DNA of 32,459 nucleotides from the NCBI GenBank assembly GCA_025937835.1, contig JAICQO010000077.1, forward strand, positions 1-32,459, read 5' to 3'. Shown here piece after piece: positions 11,450 to 20,159 of this stretch. The notes under the pieces are model-generated. The model saw only the letters and a list, made by a program, of their open reading frames with translations. It searched no databases and was not told the origin of the DNA. Source of the stretch: Polyangiaceae bacterium. Lineage in GTDB: Bacteria; Myxococcota_A; Polyangia; Polyangiales; Polyangiaceae. A program made the position numbers and the translations under genes. Position 1 is the stretch's first letter. Each line of letters begins with the position of its first letter.

Positions 11450-12973
11450 ATGGCCGCGTGTCCCGTCAGCGTCGGCGACTCGATCGCCGGCAAATACATC
11501 GTCGAAAGTGTGATCGGCGAAGGGGGAATGGGCGTCGTCGTGGCCGCTCGGCACGTCGAGCTCGATCAGCGCGTGGCCATCAAGTTCTTGCTCCCGGCGA
11601 TCGCCGAGCAAGAGCTCGCCGCGCAGCGCTTCCGGCGTGAGGCCCGCGCCGCCGCGAAGATCCGCGGCGAGCACGTGTGCCGGGTGCTGGACGTCGGCTC
11701 GCTGGAGCAGGGCGTGCCGTACATGGTGATGGAGTACCTCGACGGCTGCGACCTCGCCCAGGAGCTGACGAAGCGCCAGCGCCTGCCGATCGACGAGGTG
11801 GTGGACTACGTGCTTCAGGCCTGCGAGGCGCTGGCCGAAGCGCACTCCGCCGGGATCGTGCACCGCGATCTCAAACCCGGGAATCTGTTCCTGGCGACGG
11901 CGGCCGACGGCACGCGCCGGATCAAGGTGCTCGACTTCGGGGTCTCGAAGTTCCTGATCGAGGCGGGCTCGGGCTCGCCCGCGCTGACGAAGACCTCGTC
12001 GCTGGTCGGCTCTCCGATCTACATGGCGCCCGAACAGTTCGACGGCTCGAAGCGCGTAGACGAGCGCACCGACATCTGGGCGCTCGGGATCGTGCTGTAC
12101 GAGCTCGTGACCGGCACCACCCCGTTCGAAGCGGAGACGATCGCGCAGCTCATCAGCGCCGTGCTGCACGCGAAGCCAATGCCGCTCGCCGAACGCGGGG
12201 TGCACGCGCCGGAGGGCTTCGAGGCGATCATCGAACGGGCGCTCAGCAAGCAATCGGCCGAGCGCTTCAGCTCGGTGTCCGAGCTCGCCACAGCGCTCGT
12301 GCCGTACGGTCCGACGCACGCCAGCTTGCGCGCCTCGCGCGTTTCGCGGCTGCTCCCGGCGTCGAGCGGTCGCTTGTCCCGGCCGTCGCTGCCCGCCACG
12401 AGCCGCCCGGCAAGCCTCGGTCCCTCGGCTACGACGGTGTTCGACACCGATCCCAACAAGCCGCGCTCCAATCCCCGGGCGCCCACGCCGAACGGCTGGG
12501 AGATGACGCAGAAGCCCGCGCGTTCGCGCGCCGCGCGCGCCGGCCTCGCCGCGCTCGCGCTGCTCGTGCCGGCCGGCGCGGCGCTCTGGTACCAAAAAGC
12601 GCGCACGGAGGAGCCCGCCCCGCCGAGCCTCCACGCGGCTGAGCAGCCGGCGCCCCCCGCCGTCAGTGAGCCCGTCGAGCCGGTCGAGGCAGCGAAGCCG
12701 AGCGTGGCGCCAGAGGGTTCCGCGCCCGTCGCGCCGGCCGAGAGCGAAGCCGCCGCGCCGGTCGCGGCCAGCGCCGCCGCGACCGCGACGACCGCGACGA
12801 CCGCGACGACCGCGAGCAGCGTTGCGGCACCCGTAGCCGCCGCGGCGCCCGCAGCCAGGCCGCCGGTGTGGCGCGGGCCCGCCGCGCGCCCCGCGACGCC
12901 GAAAGCGAGCGAGAGCGCTCGGCCCGCCACGCAACAGCCCCCCGGTATCTCGGACTTCGGCGGCCGTCGCTAG
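11450..12973 (+). CDS. Membrane-anchored Ser/Thr protein kinase (Hanks type)
   Basis: A 507-residue kinase. The catalytic domain spans about residues 15-285. It has a Gly-rich loop (GEGGMGVV, 23-30), Lys45 in VAIK, Glu64, the catalytic loop HRDLKPGN with Asp140, DFG at 162-164, the activation segment and APE (193-195). All key residues are present, so it should be active. A Ser/Pro-rich juxtamembrane stretch (about 290-360) leads to one membrane span (about 362-381). A Pro/Ala/Glu/Thr-rich outer tail contains an in-frame 9-bp tandem repeat. No PASTA domain or other sensor fold is visible. It is a single gene between the polysaccharide lipoproteins and the sigma-factor operon, and could regulate either; the target is unknown. 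Confidence 0.93.
   Translation: MAACPVSVGDSIAGKYIVESVIGEGGMGVVVAARHVELDQRVAIKFLLPAIAEQELAAQRFRREARAAAKIRGEHVCRVLDVGSLEQGVPYMVMEYLDGCDLAQELTKRQRLPIDEVVDYVLQACEALAEAHSAGIVHRDLKPGNLFLATAADGTRRIKVLDFGVSKFLIEAGSGSPALTKTSSLVGSPIYMAPEQFDGSKRVDERTDIWALGIVLYELVTGTTPFEAETIAQLISAVLHAKPMPLAERGVHAPEGFEAIIERALSKQSAERFSSVSELATALVPYGPTHASLRASRVSRLLPASSGRLSRPSLPATSRPASLGPSATTVFDTDPNKPRSNPRAPTPNGWEMTQKPARSRAARAGLAALALLVPAGAALWYQKARTEEPAPPSLHAAEQPAPPAVSEPVEPVEAAKPSVAPEGSAPVAPAESEAAAPVAASAAATATTATTATTASSVAAPVAAAAPAARPPVWRGPAARPATPKASESARPATQQPPGISDFGGRR
12781..12816 (+). repeat. Four-copy 9-bp tandem repeat in the kinase tail
   Basis: The unit GACCGCGAC occurs four times head to tail (the last ends in G). It encodes the Thr/Ala-rich part of the extracytoplasmic tail. 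Because the unit is 9 bp, copy-number changes keep the reading frame and would only alter tail length. Confidence 0.85.
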
Positions 12974-13078: not shown

Positions 13079-14104
13079 ATGTCACGGTTGGTTCGCGTCG
13101 CTGGGATCGGCGCCATTGCCCTGTTCGGTTGGACCGGTGCGCCCGCGCAAGCGTTCGCGCAGGCCAGCGCGAGCGACAAGGCTGCCGCCGAGTCGCTGTT
13201 CGATCGCGGCCTCGCGCTGATGCGCGACGGTAAGTTCCAGGAGGCGTGCCACGCCCTCGAGCAGAGCCAGTCCATCGAGCGCGGCATCGGCACCATGCTC
13301 TACCTCGCCGAGTGTTACGAGAAGCTCGGGCGCACCGCGAGCGCCTGGGCGCTGTTCCGCGAGGCGGCGTCGCAAGCGCGCGCCGGCGGGCAGGGCTCGC
13401 GTGCCGAAGCCGGCGCCGCCCGAGCCGCCGCGCTCGAGCCCAAGTTGTCGAGGCTGACGGTGCAGGTCGATCCCAAGAACGCGATGCCGGGGTTCGAGCT
13501 CTTGCGCGACGGACAGATCGTGAGCCGCGGCATGTTCGGCGTCGGGGTCCCGGTGGATCCGGGCGAGCACACGCTCGAGGCGCGCGCCCCGGGGTACTTG
13601 CCCTGGACCGGCAGCGCTCGCGTGGGGCTCGAGCACGACTCGGCCAGCGTCTACGTGCCGGAGCTGAAGCTCGACCCGAGCCAGCCAGCCGAGCCTGCGC
13701 CCGAGCCCGCCGCGGCCGCGGTCGCGCCGCCCGTCACGTCTCTAAACACACCCGAGCGCGACGCATCGCGAGGATCACCCCAGCGCACCGCCGGGCTCGT
13801 GATCGGCGGTGTCGGCGTCGTGGCCCTCGGCGTCGGCAGCTACTTCGGTTTGAGCGCCATGGGAAAGAACAGCGACGCCGAGGACAAGTGCCCGAGCGAT
13901 CCGTGCGGGGACAAGGACGGCGTCGAGCTCAACGACGATGCGAAATCCGCGGCCACGCTGTCGAACGTGTTCATGTTCGGCGGCGCAGCGCTGGCGGCCA
14001 CCGGCGTCGTCCTCTACTTCACGGCGCCGTCGCCGAGCACGCCGACGGCGTCGGTCTCGAGTGACGGGCGCAGCCTGAAGCTCAACGTCGGAGGTGCGTT
14101 TTGA
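13079..14104 (+). CDS. Exported TPR/PEGA-like protein, first gene of the sigma-factor operon
   Basis: A 341-residue protein with a signal peptide (cleavage near AFAQA, about residue 28). A TPR-like helical region follows (about 33-110, SLFDRGLALMRDGKFQEACH then AECYEKLGRTASAW). Next is a PEGA-like beta domain (about 125-205), recognised by VDPGEHTLEARAPGY. After an Ala/Pro linker come two hydrophobic segments (about 238-258 and 290-313) with a short Cys-pair loop between them. This layout recurs in myxobacterial envelope proteins, but no biochemical role is established as far as I know. The stop overlaps the TTG start of the next gene (TTGA), so the pair is probably co-translated. Confidence 0.8.
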   Translation: MSRLVRVAGIGAIALFGWTGAPAQAFAQASASDKAAAESLFDRGLALMRDGKFQEACHALEQSQSIERGIGTMLYLAECYEKLGRTASAWALFREAASQARAGGQGSRAEAGAARAAALEPKLSRLTVQVDPKNAMPGFELLRDGQIVSRGMFGVGVPVDPGEHTLEARAPGYLPWTGSARVGLEHDSASVYVPELKLDPSQPAEPAPEPAAAAVAPPVTSLNTPERDASRGSPQRTAGLVIGGVGVVALGVGSYFGLSAMGKNSDAEDKCPSDPCGDKDGVELNDDAKSAATLSNVFMFGGAALAATGVVLYFTAPSPSTPTASVSSDGRSLKLNVGGAF

Positions 14105-15366
14105 AGCGCTTATTGCTTGGTTTTCCCGCAGCGCTCGCGTTGTTCACGCTGCTCGGCAGCGGTTGTCAGTCGATCATCGGTATCGAGGATCGAACCTACG
14201 ACAAGAGCCTCGACGGCGAGACCGGAGGGCGCAGCAACGGCTCGACCGGTGGCGCCGGCAACTCGACCGGTGGCGGCGGCTCCCAGGTCCCGAGCGACGT
14301 CTCACCCGCGTGCCGGGAGTATTGCGAGCTGACCAAGCAGAATTGCACGAACGAGTGCAACGGCGTGGAGGACGGCCGCTGCGCCAAGGACTACAAGCTG
14401 TATCCGAGCGACGTGGTCTGCTGGAACGTGTGCAAGACCATCGAAGAGCTCGAGCTCGACGATCCGGACAACACCGTCGCTTGCCGGATCAACGAGGCCA
14501 GAAACGCCGGGGTGACCGGCGAGGTCTGGACGCATTGCCCAGCGGCGGGGCCGGGCGGTGCCGGCGTGTGCGGTGACAACTGCGAGAGCTACTGCTCGCT
14601 GATGGACAGCTTCTGCGCGGGGGACGATTTCAAGAACTTGAGGGATCCGGATTGCGTCGCGAAGTGTCGCGGCTTGCGCGACGCCGATACGGACGAGATC
14701 CCCGACGCCACCGCCAGCGCCTTCGGCGAAAAGCGCCACCACGACGGGGATTCCGTGCAGTGCCGGCTCGTGCACGCCAGCAACGCCTCGGCCTCGCCGA
14801 GCACGCATTGCTGGCATGCGGCGCTAGCGCCGAAGCCCGACGTGAAGACCGAAGCGCACAACCCGTGCGCCGACGAACCCGGCGTCGAGCCGCGCTGCAG
14901 GGACTACTGCAAGCTGATCGCCGTGGCCTGCCAGGGCGAGCTCGCGGTCTACGAGCCGGGCAACCAGTGCGAGAAGGCCTGCGAAGCGCTCGAGCCGGGC
15001 GACAGCACCGAGCAGGTCGGCGTCAACTCGATCGGCTGCCGCCGCAACCACGCCTACAACGCGATGCTCGGCGGAGCCGATAAACATTGCACGCACGCGG
15101 GGCCGGCGGGCGAGGGGGTGTGCGGCAACAACTGTGACTCGTATTGCACGCTGCTCGAAGCCGCTTGCGAGGACGACTTCACGAGCAGCGAAGAGTGCCT
15201 CGAGGAGTGCGAGGCCCTCGACGGCTCCGAGCCGATGTCGCCCTACGCCGTCAATGCGATCGAAGAGGGCAACAACTTCCAGTGCCGGATGCGCGCCGTG
15301 GTGCGCGCCTTCGTCGATCCGGACCAGTGCGAGAGCGCGATCGGCTCCGGGGACTGCCAGGACTGA
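14101..15366 (+). CDS. Cys-rich lipoprotein with four tandem modules, unknown function
   Basis: A 421-residue protein from a TTG start that overlaps the previous stop. It has a hydrophobic signal with probable lipidation at Cys22 (LLGSGC) and a short Gly/Ser/Thr stalk (about 40-62). Four modules of roughly 80-105 residues follow. Each has the pattern C-x3-Y-C-x6-C, then C-x3-C, then C-R with nearby Ala/His/Asn, then a closing Cys. Module junctions carry GVCGDNCESYC or GVCGNNCDSYC. No CxxCH haem motif was found. I do not recognise a named family. Position directly before the TonB-dependent receptor suggests a surface partner, in the way SusD-like lipoproteins sit with SusC. That is inference; the fold is clearly not SusD-like at sequence level. 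Confidence 0.8.
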   Translation: MKRLLLGFPAALALFTLLGSGCQSIIGIEDRTYDKSLDGETGGRSNGSTGGAGNSTGGGGSQVPSDVSPACREYCELTKQNCTNECNGVEDGRCAKDYKLYPSDVVCWNVCKTIEELELDDPDNTVACRINEARNAGVTGEVWTHCPAAGPGGAGVCGDNCESYCSLMDSFCAGDDFKNLRDPDCVAKCRGLRDADTDEIPDATASAFGEKRHHDGDSVQCRLVHASNASASPSTHCWHAALAPKPDVKTEAHNPCADEPGVEPRCRDYCKLIAVACQGELAVYEPGNQCEKACEALEPGDSTEQVGVNSIGCRRNHAYNAMLGGADKHCTHAGPAGEGVCGNNCDSYCTLLEAACEDDFTSSEECLEECEALDGSEPMSPYAVNAIEEGNNFQCRMRAVVRAFVDPDQCESAIGSGDCQD

Positions 15367-15436
15367 GCCCTCGCACGCTGCCCCCGGATTCGCACCCGTG
15401 AAATGAAGGGAACTCGGCCGTCGCGCGAACACGGGC

Positions 15437-17455
15437 GTGACGGCATCCCGACTCTGGTGGTTCGCAGCCTTTTTTTCGCTCTCCGCGACGGCCCAGGCTC
15501 AGGTCACGGTCCGCGGGGAGCGGCGAGAAATTGGCCAGACGACGCTCGCGGCCGACGAGGTGCGCGAGCTGCCGGGTGCTTTCGGCGACGCGTTCCGCGC
15601 GGTCGAGGTGCTGCCGAGCGTCACGCCCGCGCTCAGCGGCTTCCCGTATTTCTTCGTGCGGGGAGCGCCTCCCAACAACAATGGCTACTTCGTCGATGGC
15701 GTTCGCGTGCCGCTGCTGTTCCACGTGGCGCTCGGGCCGTCGGTGATCCATCCGGGGCTGCTCGAACGCGTCGATTTCTACCCCGGCGCACCCCCGGCGC
15801 GCTTCGGCGGAGTCGCCGGGGCCGTGATCTCGGGGACCACGCGCGAGCCTGCGACCGAGCCGCGCGGCGAAGCCAATTTGCGACTGGTCGACGCCGGCAC
15901 GCTGCTCGAGGCGCCGTTTGCCGATGGCACCGCCAGCGCGCTCGTCGCCGGCCGCTATGGCTACCCGGGGCCGATTCTGAGCGCCATTTCGGACGTGACG
16001 CTCGGCTACTGGGACTATCAGTCGCGCGTCGCCTGGCGCGTCGGAGCCCGCGACACGCTGAGCGTGTTTGCGTTCGGTAGCCACGACCTGCTCGCCCACG
16101 AGGATCCGCGCACGGGGCGCAACGTGGAAGACCTGGTCAGCGACTTTCACCGCGTCGATCTGCGCTACGACCGCGCGCTCGACGACGGCCAGATCCGCCT
16201 GGCGGCGACCCTCGGTTACGACTCGCAGGGTGCCGATGGCACGTACCTCCGCGATCACTCCGCCGCGATCCGCGCTCACTACGAGCAGCAGCTCGGGAGC
16301 GCGGTCCGGCTGCGGGCCGGGCTCGACGGCTCGCTCGATAAGTACAGCGTCCGCCACTCCGAGGCGATTGACCCGGAGGTCGGCGGTGCCCCCTCGAACG
16401 CCGAGCCACCTCGGACGAATCTGACCGCGGGGGCCAGCGTCGACCTGATCCTGCGGCCGACGCGCCGAGTCGAGCTCGTACCGGGTGCCCGCGTCACGGT
16501 CTTCGACTCCGCGCACGCGCGAGCAGCGGGCGATCCGAGCCGCGTTCGCGACACGGTGGTGGCGATCGATCCCCGTTTCTCGGCTCGCACCTTGCTCGCT
16601 CGCGGTGTCGCCGCGGTCTCGAGCCTGGGGCTCGCCCATCAGTATCCGGCGCTTCGCGTCGGTCCCTTGCCGGCTCCGGTGGTCACGGCGCCCGGGTTCC
16701 CCGACGACGGCCGCAAGCTCCAGCGCGTTTTCCAGGCAAGCCAGGGGCTCGAGGTCGCCTTACCCTGGGAGTTGATGGTGAGTGGCACGGGGTTCTTGAG
16801 TCGCTCGAGCGGGCTCACGGATCTGACCGCGCCCTGCGAGCAGATCGAGCCTCCGATGGCCGAGCCCGGGGCTGGCCCGCGGCCGGAAGATCCCTACTAC
16901 TGCCCGGCCAACTCACCCGTGGACGGACACGCCTACGGCTTCGAGCTCTCGATCCGCAGGCCGCTGACGGAGAGCGTGAGCGGCCTGCTCTCGTACACGC
17001 TGTCGCGCTCTGTCCGCGAGACTCACTTTCTGCGCCTCGACGGGACGACCGCCACCGAGACCGTGCCGAACGATTTCGATCGCACGCACTTGCTGAACGC
17101 GGTGCTCGCGTTCGATCTCGGTCGAAACTGGCGCGCGGGAACTCGCTTCGTGTTCTACACGGGGACTCCGTATTCGGAGCTGGTCGGCAACCTGCCGGCG
17201 CCGCCGTACAATAGCCGCCGCCACCCGTCCTTCTATCGGGTCGATGTGCGGCTCGAGAAGCGCTGGCGTTTCGGGGAGGGTCGCTCGATCGCTTTCGTGC
17301 TCGAGGGCCAGAACGTCACCCTCAGCAAAGAGGCGAACTCTCTGGCAATGGACTGTCGGGGGGACATGACCCCGGATGGCTACACCACGCAATGCGAGTA
17401 CGGCGAGGTCGGTCCCATCACGCTACCGAGCATCGGAGTGGAGGCTTTTTTCTGA
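15437..17455 (+). CDS. TonB-dependent outer-membrane receptor without an N-terminal signalling domain
   Basis: A 672-residue receptor from a GTG start, with a signal peptide ending near AQAQ (about residue 22). The plug domain (about 23-135) has the typical run FFVRGAPPNNNGYFVDG, then LLERVDFYPG and RFGG. The rest is a barrel with alternating hydrophobic strands and a C-terminal Phe, the outer-membrane insertion signature. No STN domain precedes the plug, so it cannot contact the neighbouring anti-sigma factor the way FecA does. The ligand is unknown. The gene lies between the four-module lipoprotein and a barrel-like protein in one co-directional run. A short gap of 70 nt precedes it and 60 nt follows it. 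Confidence 0.9.
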   Translation: MTASRLWWFAAFFSLSATAQAQVTVRGERREIGQTTLAADEVRELPGAFGDAFRAVEVLPSVTPALSGFPYFFVRGAPPNNNGYFVDGVRVPLLFHVALGPSVIHPGLLERVDFYPGAPPARFGGVAGAVISGTTREPATEPRGEANLRLVDAGTLLEAPFADGTASALVAGRYGYPGPILSAISDVTLGYWDYQSRVAWRVGARDTLSVFAFGSHDLLAHEDPRTGRNVEDLVSDFHRVDLRYDRALDDGQIRLAATLGYDSQGADGTYLRDHSAAIRAHYEQQLGSAVRLRAGLDGSLDKYSVRHSEAIDPEVGGAPSNAEPPRTNLTAGASVDLILRPTRRVELVPGARVTVFDSAHARAAGDPSRVRDTVVAIDPRFSARTLLARGVAAVSSLGLAHQYPALRVGPLPAPVVTAPGFPDDGRKLQRVFQASQGLEVALPWELMVSGTGFLSRSSGLTDLTAPCEQIEPPMAEPGAGPRPEDPYYCPANSPVDGHAYGFELSIRRPLTESVSGLLSYTLSRSVRETHFLRLDGTTATETVPNDFDRTHLLNAVLAFDLGRNWRAGTRFVFYTGTPYSELVGNLPAPPYNSRRHPSFYRVDVRLEKRWRFGEGRSIAFVLEGQNVTLSKEANSLAMDCRGDMTPDGYTTQCEYGEVGPITLPSIGVEAFF

Positions 17456-17515
17456 AAAGCAGCGCGCCGTATGAAGGATCCCGTGGCATCGAGCGAAGAA
17501 GTGCGAGAACACCGC

Positions 17516-18505
17516 ATGACGTCCGGCCGCGTCCTCGCTTGCCCCGCGCTCTTGGGCAGCCTTCTGGGCATGGCCTGGGCCGTGCCAGCGCGCGGGGAGC
17601 CAGCTCCGTGTCGAGCGGGCGCCGTCGAGGTCGAGCCGCGACTGGACGCGGCCTATCCCGGTTTGGGTGACGAGGTGCGAGCTTCACTCGCTACCCATCA
17701 GGGGCTCGAGCCTTGCGCTCGCGTCGAGCTCGGCTTCGTGCGCTCCGCGATCGCGGTGGGGGTGAGCCTCGCGGACGGTCGCTCCGCGACACGGGTGATC
17801 GCCGACGCTCGCGACGTCGTGCCGGTCGTGGAAGCGCTGCTGCTCGTGCCGGAGCCGGAGCCCGAGTCCGAGTCGGAGCCCGAGTCCAAGACGGAGCCCG
17901 AACGCGATGCGACGCCAGCGCCGAAACCCGTAGAGCGCCCGCGCCCGGTTCGCCGCCTGCTCGTGCCCGAGCTCGCCGAGCAGCCGCCGCCGGAAGGCGA
18001 ATCGCGCACGGGTATCGAGATCTCGCTCGCCGCCGGGGCACGGCTCGGCGACGGACAATCGAGCGTGGGGCTCGGCGCTATCACGTTTCTCGAGCTCTCG
18101 AGCTGGCTGCTCGGCCTTGGTTTGCGCGCGGATCACTACGACGCGGGGAATGAGTACGCGTACACCGCGACCGGGCTCTCTGCGCTGGCCGGGCATCGGT
18201 TTCGAGCTGGGCGCGCGGCAGTGGATCTGGTCGCCGGACCCGTGTTGATGCTGCAAGCCGACGCCTCGGTGGTGGACGAGGCGGGGCCCCCCGAGCGCCG
18301 CCGGGAGACGCGCACGGAGCGGATGCCGCGGTTTGCGGGGGCAGGATACGTCCATTTCGGACCCGCCTCGGGACTGCATCCCTTCATCGGCGTCGAAGGC
18401 GAAGTGGGCCTTTCAACGCCAGCGTCCGAACCGGGTCCGAGCGCGCCGGAGCTCCCGGCGTGGACGGTCGGGGTCGCCTTCGGGGGGAGCGTGGGCACGC
18501 GATGA
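17516..18505 (+). CDS. Barrel-like outer-membrane protein with periplasmic domain and acidic linker
   Basis: 329 residues from the ATG at 17516, which gives a normal signal peptide cut near ARGEP (about residue 27). An in-frame ATG at 17471 would add a charged leader. The small N-terminal domain (about 28-106) has two cysteines, one near the mature start and one in LEPCARVEL, perhaps disulfide-linked. A Glu/Pro/Ser repeat linker (about 107-150) follows. The C-terminal half (about 157-329) alternates aromatic and hydrophobic residues like a small beta-barrel. No family name can be given with certainty. It overlaps the sigma-factor start by 4 nt (ATGA), so its translation is tied to regulation of the operon. 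It could be the envelope sensor that the STN-less receptor lacks. Confidence 0.75.
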   Translation: MTSGRVLACPALLGSLLGMAWAVPARGEPAPCRAGAVEVEPRLDAAYPGLGDEVRASLATHQGLEPCARVELGFVRSAIAVGVSLADGRSATRVIADARDVVPVVEALLLVPEPEPESESEPESKTEPERDATPAPKPVERPRPVRRLLVPELAEQPPPEGESRTGIEISLAAGARLGDGQSSVGLGAITFLELSSWLLGLGLRADHYDAGNEYAYTATGLSALAGHRFRAGRAAVDLVAGPVLMLQADASVVDEAGPPERRRETRTERMPRFAGAGYVHFGPASGLHPFIGVEGEVGLSTPASEPGPSAPELPAWTVGVAFGGSVGTR

Positions 18506-19065
18506 TCCGGCGTGGCGTGCAACCGCAGCTACCGGCGAGCGATGCCGAGCTGATGCAGCGGCTCGCGGCGGGCGACATCGGCGCGCTCGGCGAGCTCTAC
18601 GATCGCCACCAACACGCCGTGCGGCGCTTCCTGAGCCGCGCCACCGCCGACGCCGAAGACGTGGACGACCTCGTGCACGGCGCGTTTCTCACGGCCGTGA
18701 AGAGCGCCGGTCGCTACGACGGCCGCGAGAGCGCTCGCCCGTGGTTGATCGGTGTGGCCGTGCAGTTGCTGCGCCGCCGCCGCCGCTCGCTCGGCCGCTG
18801 GCTCGAGATCCTCGGGTCGTTGAAGAGCCTGCGACCGAACAGCGCGGATCCGCGCGCGGCCTTGCCGGAGCGCGGAGAGCTCGAGCGCGCTTTGAGCCGC
18901 CTCTCCGAAGCCAAGCGCCTCACGATCTTGCTGGCTGAAGTCGAAGGCTGGAGTTGCCAGGAGCTCGCCAGTTTCTTCGAGGTTCCGATTGGCACGGTCT
19001 GGACACGGCTGCACGCGGCGCGCCGCGAGCTCCGCAAGGCGCTCGAACCCGGAGAGCTGCCGTGA
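18502..19065 (+). CDS. ECF-type RNA polymerase sigma factor
   Basis: A 187-residue sigma-70 family factor with only regions 2 and 4. Region 2 (about 18-85) contains ALGELYDRHQHAVRRF and the core-binding DAEDVDDLVHGAFL. Region 4 (about 120-180) has the helix-turn-helix GWSCQELASFFEVPIGTVWTRLHAARREL. The ATG at 18502 is chosen because it forms an ATGA overlap with the preceding stop; an upstream in-frame start would lie inside the previous gene. The stop overlaps the GTG of the anti-sigma gene (GTGA). It probably transcribes this operon or related surface-protein genes. No promoter motif for it could be picked with confidence. Confidence 0.95.
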   Translation: MIRRGVQPQLPASDAELMQRLAAGDIGALGELYDRHQHAVRRFLSRATADAEDVDDLVHGAFLTAVKSAGRYDGRESARPWLIGVAVQLLRRRRRSLGRWLEILGSLKSLRPNSADPRAALPERGELERALSRLSEAKRLTILLAEVEGWSCQELASFFEVPIGTVWTRLHAARRELRKALEPGELP

Positions 19066-20159
19066 GCGCCTGTCCGCGAACGTTCGAGGTCGAAGCGCTG
19101 CGCGACGGCCGTCTCGGCGGCAGCGAGCGCGCTGGCTTCGAACGCCACCTGAGCACCTGCAGCGCCTGCGCGCGAGAGCTGGCGGCGCTCGAGCGGTTGG
19201 GCGCCGCGCTCTGCGACAGCCACCCGACGAGCACCGACGAGCTCGAGGTGCGGCGAGCGCGGACGCGCTTGCTGGTCGCGTTCAATCAGTCGCTGATCGG
19301 GCGCGCAGGGGAGGCAGAAGATCCGCTATCCGCCGTCGGATCTCGGGTTTCGCGGCGGGCGCTGGGGGCCCTCGCTGCGGGCGTAGCCGTCGCTGCGGGT
19401 GCGCTGTGGTTCGGTGCGCGAGCAGACGAAAAGCCGGCGCTGCCCGCGAGCGCCGTCACGGTGCGCGCCGACGCGGGTGCCCGCTGGACGCGCCAGATCA
19501 GCGAACGACGCGAGCTGATCCTGCTCGACGAGGGCCGGCTGTGGATCCAGGTGCGGCGCACCGGGAGCGGGAACGAGCCGCCGCTGCTCGTGGGCTTGCC
19601 CGACGGAGAGCTCGAGGATCTGGGAACGACCTTCACCGTCAGCGCGGAGTCCGGACGCACCACGCTCGTCGCGGTGGAGGAGGGGAGCGTGCTGCTCAGG
19701 CTGCGCGGTCAAGCGCCGCGCACGATCGGCGCGCGCGGCTCCTGGGCCGCTCCGCCCGAAGAGCCGGCGCCGCGCGAGCAACCGTTCGAGCCGAGCGCGA
19801 GCGCTCCGAGCGCGCCGGTGCCTGCCGTGAAGCCACCCGCCCCGGCGGTCATGACCGCGCCGCGCCCGGTTGGATCCGGAGAGCTGCCTGCGCCAGGCGG
19901 CGCATCGGAGCGCTTCAAGGCCGCGATGCAGGCGTTGAACCGCGGCGATGGCCGTGACGCCGCCGCGCGGTTTTCGCGCTTCCTCGAGCAGTACCCGCGT
20001 GATCCGCGCGCCGAAGACGCGGCTTATTTGCGCGTGCTCGCCCACCAGCGCAGCGGGGATAGCAGCGAGCTGCAGCGAGCTGCGCGGTACTACCTGAGGG
20101 CCTACCCGGCGGGCTTCCGGCGGCGTGAAGTGGCCGCGTTGCTGCCGTCGGTACCCTGA
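19062..20159 (+). CDS. Membrane anti-sigma factor with zinc-finger, FecR and TPR parts
   Basis: A 365-residue protein beginning with the GTG that overlaps the sigma-factor stop. The N-terminal anti-sigma zinc finger has His29-x3-Cys33-x2-Cys36. One membrane span lies at about 100-119. The periplasmic FecR-like beta domain (about 128-245) includes LPDGELEDLGTTFTVSAESG and AVEEGSVLLR. A Pro-rich linker (about 250-300) leads to a C-terminal TPR-like segment (about 302-365). A FecR domain normally receives a signal from the STN domain of a TonB receptor. Here the neighbouring receptor lacks STN, so another envelope protein probably supplies the signal. The TPR tail could make that contact. Confidence 0.9.
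   Translation: MSACPRTFEVEALRDGRLGGSERAGFERHLSTCSACARELAALERLGAALCDSHPTSTDELEVRRARTRLLVAFNQSLIGRAGEAEDPLSAVGSRVSRRALGALAAGVAVAAGALWFGARADEKPALPASAVTVRADAGARWTRQISERRELILLDEGRLWIQVRRTGSGNEPPLLVGLPDGELEDLGTTFTVSAESGRTTLVAVEEGSVLLRLRGQAPRTIGARGSWAAPPEEPAPREQPFEPSASAPSAPVPAVKPPAPAVMTAPRPVGSGELPAPGGASERFKAAMQALNRGDGRDAAARFSRFLEQYPRDPRAEDAAYLRVLAHQRSGDSSELQRAARYYLRAYPAGFRRREVAALLPSVP

Follow-up and report, generated by a model that had tools for sequence, protein, structure and literature searches.

Six closely packed genes of a Polyangiaceae bacterium raise the question of how an anti-sigma factor of FecR type could be informed about the outer membrane when the TonB-dependent receptor encoded beside it carries no STN domain. 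The window (the whole stretch of DNA analyzed; 32,459 nucleotides) is contig JAICQO010000077.1 of assembly GCA_025937835.1, positions 1-32,459 of the forward strand, and the focus was on positions 13079-20159. In this region six genes, all in the same direction, encode an exported TPR protein (A), a Cys-rich lipoprotein (B), a TonB-dependent receptor (C), an outer-membrane barrel of an unnamed family (D), an extracytoplasmic function (ECF) sigma factor (E) and a membrane anti-sigma factor (F). A protein kinase gene (K) lies upstream of A. The first-pass annotation had treated A-F as one compact operon and as a possibly undescribed surface-sensing architecture.

Comparison of gene neighborhoods indicates that the region is instead the junction of two unrelated, independent myxobacterial cassettes, K-A-B and C-D-E-F. 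For the second of these we propose, with the chances about evenly poised, an autoregulated envelope sigma unit built on a D-E-F core, in which F monitors D and C is a target recruited in one lineage. The proposal draws on computed gene content, the recurring D-E-F trio, two motifs bracketing C, domain architecture, predicted folds and the absence of any detected STN domain.

Two cassettes at one junction

Searches for F and for B covered 59 genomes (the genome of the window included), and longer stretches were then fetched. Matches to B were found in 32 of these 59 genomes. At the 29 B loci of relatives, A adjoins B in 13 cases and has no match in the other 16, and a homologue of C-F stands beside B in none. 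Those 13 loci, together with G045:C1005, were examined at length as 14 A-B loci: a K homologue is located upstream of A on the same strand in 10 of them, an eleventh has a weaker kinase match, and none contains a homologue of C, D, E or F. The A-B pair is likewise found beside none of 20 E loci, one of which has a weak A-like match approximately 4 kb downstream of F, and C-D-E-F occur together in five other genomes (L061-L064 and L097). Since A-B loci lack C-F, and E loci lack the A-B pair, the two groups of genes are considered separate, and K-A-B is, on this comparison, a conserved cassette of its own, independent of the sigma unit. A promoter-like motif, TGAAGG-N17-GA(A/T), precedes both C (site P1) and D (site P2), here and in the five relatives; C-F is therefore probably an autoregulated unit apart from A-B.

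The arrangement that suggested a single operon is itself accurate: all six genes run in one direction, separated by short gaps or, at three junctions, joined by exact 4-nt overlaps (A/B, TTGA, 14101-14104; D/E, ATGA, 18502-18505; E/F, GTGA, 19062-19065). Read-through from B to C is also possible, as neither a terminator-like site nor a sigma-70-type promoter was found in positions 15250-15600. However, the six-gene order was not conserved when relatives were compared, but broke into K-A-B and C-D-E-F (C-F beside 0/14 A-B loci, the A-B pair beside 0/20 E loci), and the putative promoter P1 separates B from C. It is thus very improbable that the six genes form one operon that senses the surface as a unit, whether through the Cys-module lipoprotein or through the barrel.

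The barrel, sigma and anti-sigma core

An F alignment was scanned against titled genome contigs, which yielded 36 F loci, all in records titled myxobacterial, deltaproteobacterial or proteobacterial. E and F occur together on the same strand in 34 of them, and D lies beside E-F in 32. At least 2.4 kb of sequence precedes the first gene in 22 of the 32 D-E-F loci, of which 4 have C upstream and 18 lack it; in the remaining 10 the upstream sequence is too short for C to be judged, and L064 and the window are two further C-bearing loci beyond those 4. Of the 144 genomes examined from the order, 38 matched a D profile. Thirty D loci were retrieved, counting the window, and in 28 of these D is adjoined by a sigma gene on the same strand (the 30 D loci and the 36 F loci overlap as sets). 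As judged from these neighborhoods, the core of the C-D-E-F unit is D-E-F, with the barrel D as the usual partner of the sigma and anti-sigma factors. At L101:7324-10074 and L103:955-3791 the order is sigma, anti-sigma, barrel, the trio being retained despite the changed order. A hybrid GAF/PAS histidine kinase with a receiver domain (L078:1626-4418) is encoded upstream of a close homologue of the sigma gene at which no D match was found; a single predicted gene, on the opposite strand, separates the two.

In a tree of the sigma factors, one branch divides the six C-bearing loci from 19 checked C-less rows (support 90/84, which is under the strict 95/80 mark; 0/500 label shuffles gave a value as low). 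Loci were labeled C-less only where the upstream sequence was long enough; counting those with short upstream sequence as C-less gave 93/90. The window is the first branch among the C-bearing loci (93/79). The tree agrees with a single recruitment of C, although it falls short of proof.

The structure of D was modeled with AlphaFold2 (AF2) from a 26-sequence alignment (the window and 25 relatives, a subset of the loci), with a mean predicted local distance difference test (pLDDT) score of 81.6. In the model, an N-domain (residues 36-109; beta-alpha-alpha-beta-beta-beta-alpha order) is followed by a Pro/Glu-rich linker of low confidence and by a barrel domain (residues 163-329) whose eight strands, at residues 165-327, are predicted with high confidence. 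The barrel fold matches OmpA, NspA, OprF and OmpW (lowest Foldseek E 2e-6; best VIA Z 16.6-17.6), a correspondence established for the fold only, and the VIA list covers residues 161-329. No Pfam family was matched in a scan of the 26 members; OMP_b-brl matched two of them weakly (best E 0.065), and the OmpA-like peptidoglycan-binding domain none at E<=1, D ending at the barrel. For the N-domain, no credible solved relative was found by sequence (three weak matches, E 1.3-8.6). Across the 26 members, C32, G88 and R93 are invariant and W47, D87 and P112 are 90%-conserved, with identity to the D of the window falling to 16% among aligned members. On the predicted model, D is an eight-stranded barrel of OmpA type by fold, its family unnamed.

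The model of F was based on 28 sequences (the window and 27 relatives, again a subset of the loci; mean pLDDT 82.4) and comprises helices (residues 8-83), a transmembrane (TM)-like helix (98-118), a beta-solenoid (131-229), a disordered linker and TPR helices (281-358). The zinc-finger, FecR and TPR domains named in the first-pass annotation were all recovered in F by Pfam (zf-HC2, FecR and YfiO/TPR). The Hx3Cx2C residues H29, C33 and C36 are invariant and FecR is present in 28/28 members, zf-HC2 being matched in the F of the window and in 13/28. A class I (ASDI) zinc-type anti-sigma domain is defined by the Hx3Cx2C motif, often with a TM helix after it (excerpt of PMC7406223), and F has this composition: an N-terminal Hx3Cx2C helical domain, then a TM helix. 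The best fold match is the periplasmic domain of PupR (6ovk), over 108 columns, and the tail matches the TPR structures of YbgF and BamD. STN was matched neither in the F of the window nor in the 28 members in Pfam scans, and the C-terminal STN-like subdomain is absent from the model, which has the TPR helical tail instead. In the anti-sigma factor of L065 (L065:8651-9631), the C-terminal TPR tail is shortened and its last hairpin (AED.AYLR ... YL.R.P..FRR.E) retained.

From these components a working scheme can be proposed. F would hold E at the inner membrane via its zinc-type anti-sigma domain, presumably inhibiting it, while the periplasmic FecR solenoid and TPR tail would monitor D, probably by contact with its periplasmic N-domain and/or Pro-rich linker. 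The presumed signal is an altered D, whether through a ligand, the state of the envelope or the assembly of D itself, and it would lead to the release of E. Release could plausibly occur by proteolysis of F, as for FecR, which is cleaved within its membrane segment by RseP (excerpt of PMC8144685). Freed E would transcribe from the TGAAGG-N17-GA(A/T) promoters P2 and P1 and so amplify D-E-F and, in one lineage, C, which would be a transporter drawn into the regulon rather than a transducer.

The first-pass annotation had offered either B or D, the latter linked to the sigma gene through the ATGA overlap, as the carrier of the signal in place of STN. B finds no support in this role, as A-B belong to the kinase cassette. 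The case for D fared better, given its regular position beside the sigma and anti-sigma genes (32/36 F loci and 28/30 D loci), the lack of STN and the TPR tail on F, and D is most likely the envelope partner of the sigma system; transmission of a signal by D is putative. More specifically, and more tentatively, D may be a TonB-independent outer-membrane transducer whose N-domain or linker docks onto the FecR/TPR tail of F and controls the release of E, replacing an STN-bearing TonB transducer in a broad myxobacterial set; the TonB receptor would have been recruited later, as a target between two promoter copies. The trio could instead be coexpressed with no sensing through D, the FecR/TPR part of F answering a periplasmic or inner-membrane cue directly and D serving as an effector barrel. 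The domain make-up of F would allow this, and 4/36 F loci lack D, but the adjacency of D holds down to 16% identity, more than would be expected of a replaceable target, and we regard such an arrangement as improbable.

Promoter motif and receptor

TGAAGG was found in 15 of 23 upstream regions (5/5 for C and 10/18 for D), compared with a dinucleotide-shuffle mean of 1.3 and a maximum of 6 over 300 shuffles. Starts had been picked for 29 D genes, of which 18 entered this count; at four C-bearing loci the region before C was taken instead (L097 separately). In 18 of the 23 regions, a copy of TGAAGG lies between 300 bases before and 30 bases after the picked start; the hexamer 17 nt after these copies carries 4.23 bits, whereas 2000 random draws reached 1.86 at most. 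TGAAGG with GA 17 nt on precedes both C and D in all six C-D-E-F loci (12/12 sites), and 9 of the 12 sites fit GAAnA. A later look at seven loci (L101, L103, L110, L115, L117, L120 and L122) revealed the motif in L110 and L117, a variant in L101 and nothing convincing in the other four; L127 and L102 have one-base variants. With one mismatch allowed, the motif has 46 matches in the genome of the window versus 12 for a reversed control, coding and intergenic sites pooled. We infer from the position, spacing and conservation of the motif with the sigma gene that E reads it. Because only four bases lie between the P1 hexamer and the GTG of C (15432-15437), the C transcript may be leaderless or nearly so; the relatives have longer leaders.

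Several observations weigh against an autoregulated unit in which F monitors D. Conserved adjacency and coexpression would be explained just as readily if D were only a target or a stress client. D is missing from 4/36 F loci (L124, at a contig edge, L125, L126 and L128), it lies downstream of F in L101 and L103, and genome G035 has a D gene (L231) without an adjoining sigma gene and a close sigma homologue (L078) without a D match. The barrel match of D is one that designed barrels share (6x9z, Z 17.1). The TPR tail of F is shortened in some relatives, and it is thus not an essential full-length docking site everywhere. As to the motif, it was first spotted by eye in the very sequences that later served to test it, some of these rows are close relatives, and the information content at offsets 15 and 16 (4.55 and 4.56 bits, versus 4.23 at 17) makes the block a broad one. 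No convincing motif was found upstream in eight D-E-F loci (L120, L115, L122, L119, L108, L109, L103 and L113), the hexamer is poor in L118 and L116, and the motif overlaps the picked start in L100 and L129. A strict pattern, derived from P1 and P2 themselves, gave 24 matches in five genomes, 7 of them in the cassettes, versus 4 for the reversed control, and missed the copies of G007.

A role for D as sigma target and stress client would fit almost as well as the sensor model. F would then sense unfolded or unassembled barrels generally, in the manner of RseA, and D would be a product of the repair response. The match of the F tail to the BamD and YbgF structures points in this direction, as do the position of D behind its own motif copy, P2, and the response of E. 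coli sigma-E to barrel misassembly (excerpt of PMC8103513). Nevertheless, a plain client barrel would not need the conserved separate N-domain of D. In the 6.9-Mb genome of the window, moreover, the strict pattern has three matches, P1, P2 and one under long open frames (none for the reversed control), which leaves no other plausible promoter and argues weakly against a broad repair regulon. On balance we consider the client role unlikely.

The receptor C was correctly described at first as an STN-less TonB receptor. Its plug is matched by Pfam, whose barrel family PF00593 misses the window copy and recognizes the copies of relatives, and STN was matched neither in the window copy (E<=1) nor in four relatives (E<=0.1) or L097 (E<=0.5). 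The check for an STN domain upstream of a mis-called start was also negative: a stop codon occupies 15404-15406 in the reading frame of C, and no common start codon follows it before GTG 15437, which rules out a missed upstream start. The contrast drawn originally, STN missing and FecR kept, describes the window copy, but the receptors of its relatives carry another N-terminal domain. TonB_C is present between the signal peptide and the plug in 5/5 C-D-E-F relatives (L061-L064 and L097; above the Pfam cutoff), whereas in the aligned window copy the signal peptide leads directly into the plug linker. A TonB_C remnant within the 70-nt B-C gap was considered and rejected, as there is no room for it and relatives of B match B to near its end. 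TonB_C also occurs in the more distant C homologues L070 and L072, and the C family model is matched from near its start by two further receptors encoded in the genome of the window; loss of TonB_C in the window lineage thus appears to be the simpler reading, although the window is the first branch of the C-bearing group.

TonB_C fused ahead of the plug recurs among receptors of the order (L061:5300-7696, L070:11247-13853 and L072:11975-14317). A receptor bearing the C-terminal domain of its own energizer is puzzling in itself.

It could be argued from the presence of TonB_C in 5/5 relatives, and of P1 before C in 6/6 loci, that C is the transducer, with TonB_C replacing STN and contacting the FecR/TPR tail of F in most C-bearing members, and with the window copy degenerate or signal-blind. 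In VreA of Pseudomonas aeruginosa, an STN-like and a TonB-like domain are in fact joined within a sigma system (excerpt of PMC2729926). Yet the window has D-E-F and both motifs intact with a receptor lacking TonB_C, and no C is found upstream in 18/22 judgeable D-E-F loci. Nor does TonB_C seem special to sigma-linked receptors, since the C model matches in 144/144 genomes of the order (at a threshold that admits TonB receptors broadly) and many of the best matches listed span TonB_C. A transducer role for C is quite unlikely; most likely C is a regulated transporter.

Feature calls and comparison with known systems

Table 1. Features called in and around the focus region (positions in the window).
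Feature	Position	Strand	Evidence
K, Ser/Thr protein kinase (Pkinase)	11450..12973	+	Pfam PF00069 E 3e-47
A, exported TPR protein, PEGA-like region sub-threshold	13079..14104	+	TPR_2 E 9e-7
B, four-module Cys-rich lipoprotein, TTG start	14101..15366	+	C..YC.L modules; no Pfam/NCBIfam family
P1, putative autoregulated ECF promoter in B-C gap, TGAAGG-N17-GAACAC	15404..15432	+	motif search
C, TonB-dependent receptor (plug + barrel), GTG start	15437..17455	+	PF07715 above cutoff
P2, second motif copy in C-D gap, TGAAGG-N17-GAAGAA	17472..17500	+	TGAAGG in 6/6 C-D gaps
D, signal peptide + alpha/beta N-domain + Pro-rich linker + predicted 8-stranded OmpA-type barrel, unnamed family	17516..18505	+	AF2 model
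E, ECF sigma factor	18502..19065	+	Sigma70_r2 E 6e-13, r4_2 E 5e-11; TIGR02937 above cutoff
F, membrane anti-sigma (Hx3Cx2C, TM-like helix, FecR solenoid, TPR tail), GTG start	19062..20159	+	Pfam + predicted model

The features are listed in Table 1. D most likely starts at ATG 17516; ATG 17471 is disfavored, as it overlaps the promoter-like motif P2. The assignment of E as an ECF sigma factor is borne out by its region 2 and region 4 matches. A major facilitator superfamily (MFS) gene lies downstream of F. In the K-A-B cassette, the description of B as a four-module Cys-rich lipoprotein is upheld: a stretch that we take to be lipobox-like ends at C22, and C..YC.L opens each of the four modules, at residues 71, 161, 266 and 345. 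The label of A as a PEGA/TPR protein stands for TPR; PEGA is plausible only, with no match in the window copy (Pfam, E<=1) and matches below the cutoff (E 8e-4 to 6e-3) in three of the four relatives tested.

In cell-surface signaling, an STN-type domain of the receptor binds the STN-like subdomain that ends the periplasmic part of the anti-sigma factor, and shields the latter from proteolysis (excerpt of PMC11637429). The Fec, Fox and Pup systems resemble the unit described here in their adjacent genes for an ECF sigma factor and a single-TM anti-sigma factor with a periplasmic FecR solenoid and, in one lineage, in the TonB receptor upstream. They differ in that here no STN was found in receptor or anti-sigma factor, F has a TPR tail where the PupR type has the STN-like subdomain, and the protein that usually accompanies the pair is a small OmpA-type barrel. 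As both defining STN features (N-terminal in the receptor, C-terminal in the anti-sigma factor) are lacking, the D-E-F unit is not filed as Fec-type.

Three other systems offer partial parallels. The first is PUMA3 (VreA-VreI-VreR) of P. aeruginosa: the TonB-like C-terminal domain of VreA recalls the TonB_C of the C relatives, and VreA is the nearest precedent found for a TonB-like domain in such a sigma system, but as described in the excerpt it lacks a barrel and keeps an STN-like domain, whereas the C of the window has plug and barrel and neither accessory domain (PMC2729926). The second is SigX, which is involved in oprF transcription in Pseudomonas (excerpt of PMC3832394) and, among the precedents found, comes nearest to a link between an OmpA-type barrel and an ECF sigma factor. 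The OprF barrel (4rlc) matches D with a VIA Z of 16.7. Compared with the domain order of OprF, the extra domain of D is N-terminal and is not an OmpA-like peptidoglycan-binding domain, and a FecR/TPR anti-sigma factor belongs to the D-E-F trio. The third is sigma-E/RseA, in which a misfolded-barrel signal leads to proteolysis by DegS and RseP; F, too, is a membrane anti-sigma factor that may monitor outer-membrane barrels, but it is of FecR/TPR type (18.5 bits against the RseA family, cutoff 165), and a dedicated barrel gene lies in the operon. Among the titles and abstract openings listed, in several cases in part, by searches of the open-licence literature, none described a barrel-sigma-FecR/TPR trio, which is weak evidence of absence, the subscription papers and the ECF group classification lying outside that scope.

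The D-E-F unit thus appears to work like ECF/FecR signaling without an STN transducer, as a variant of known signaling. The locus is also a reminder that close packing and overlaps alone can suggest an operon that relatives separate. Signaling from the outer membrane to sigma factors is understood mainly from STN-bearing TonB transducers and from sigma-E stress. The finding supplies a concrete promoter motif and, if the proposal is true, would show that signals from the outer membrane other than these can reach the FecR solenoid.

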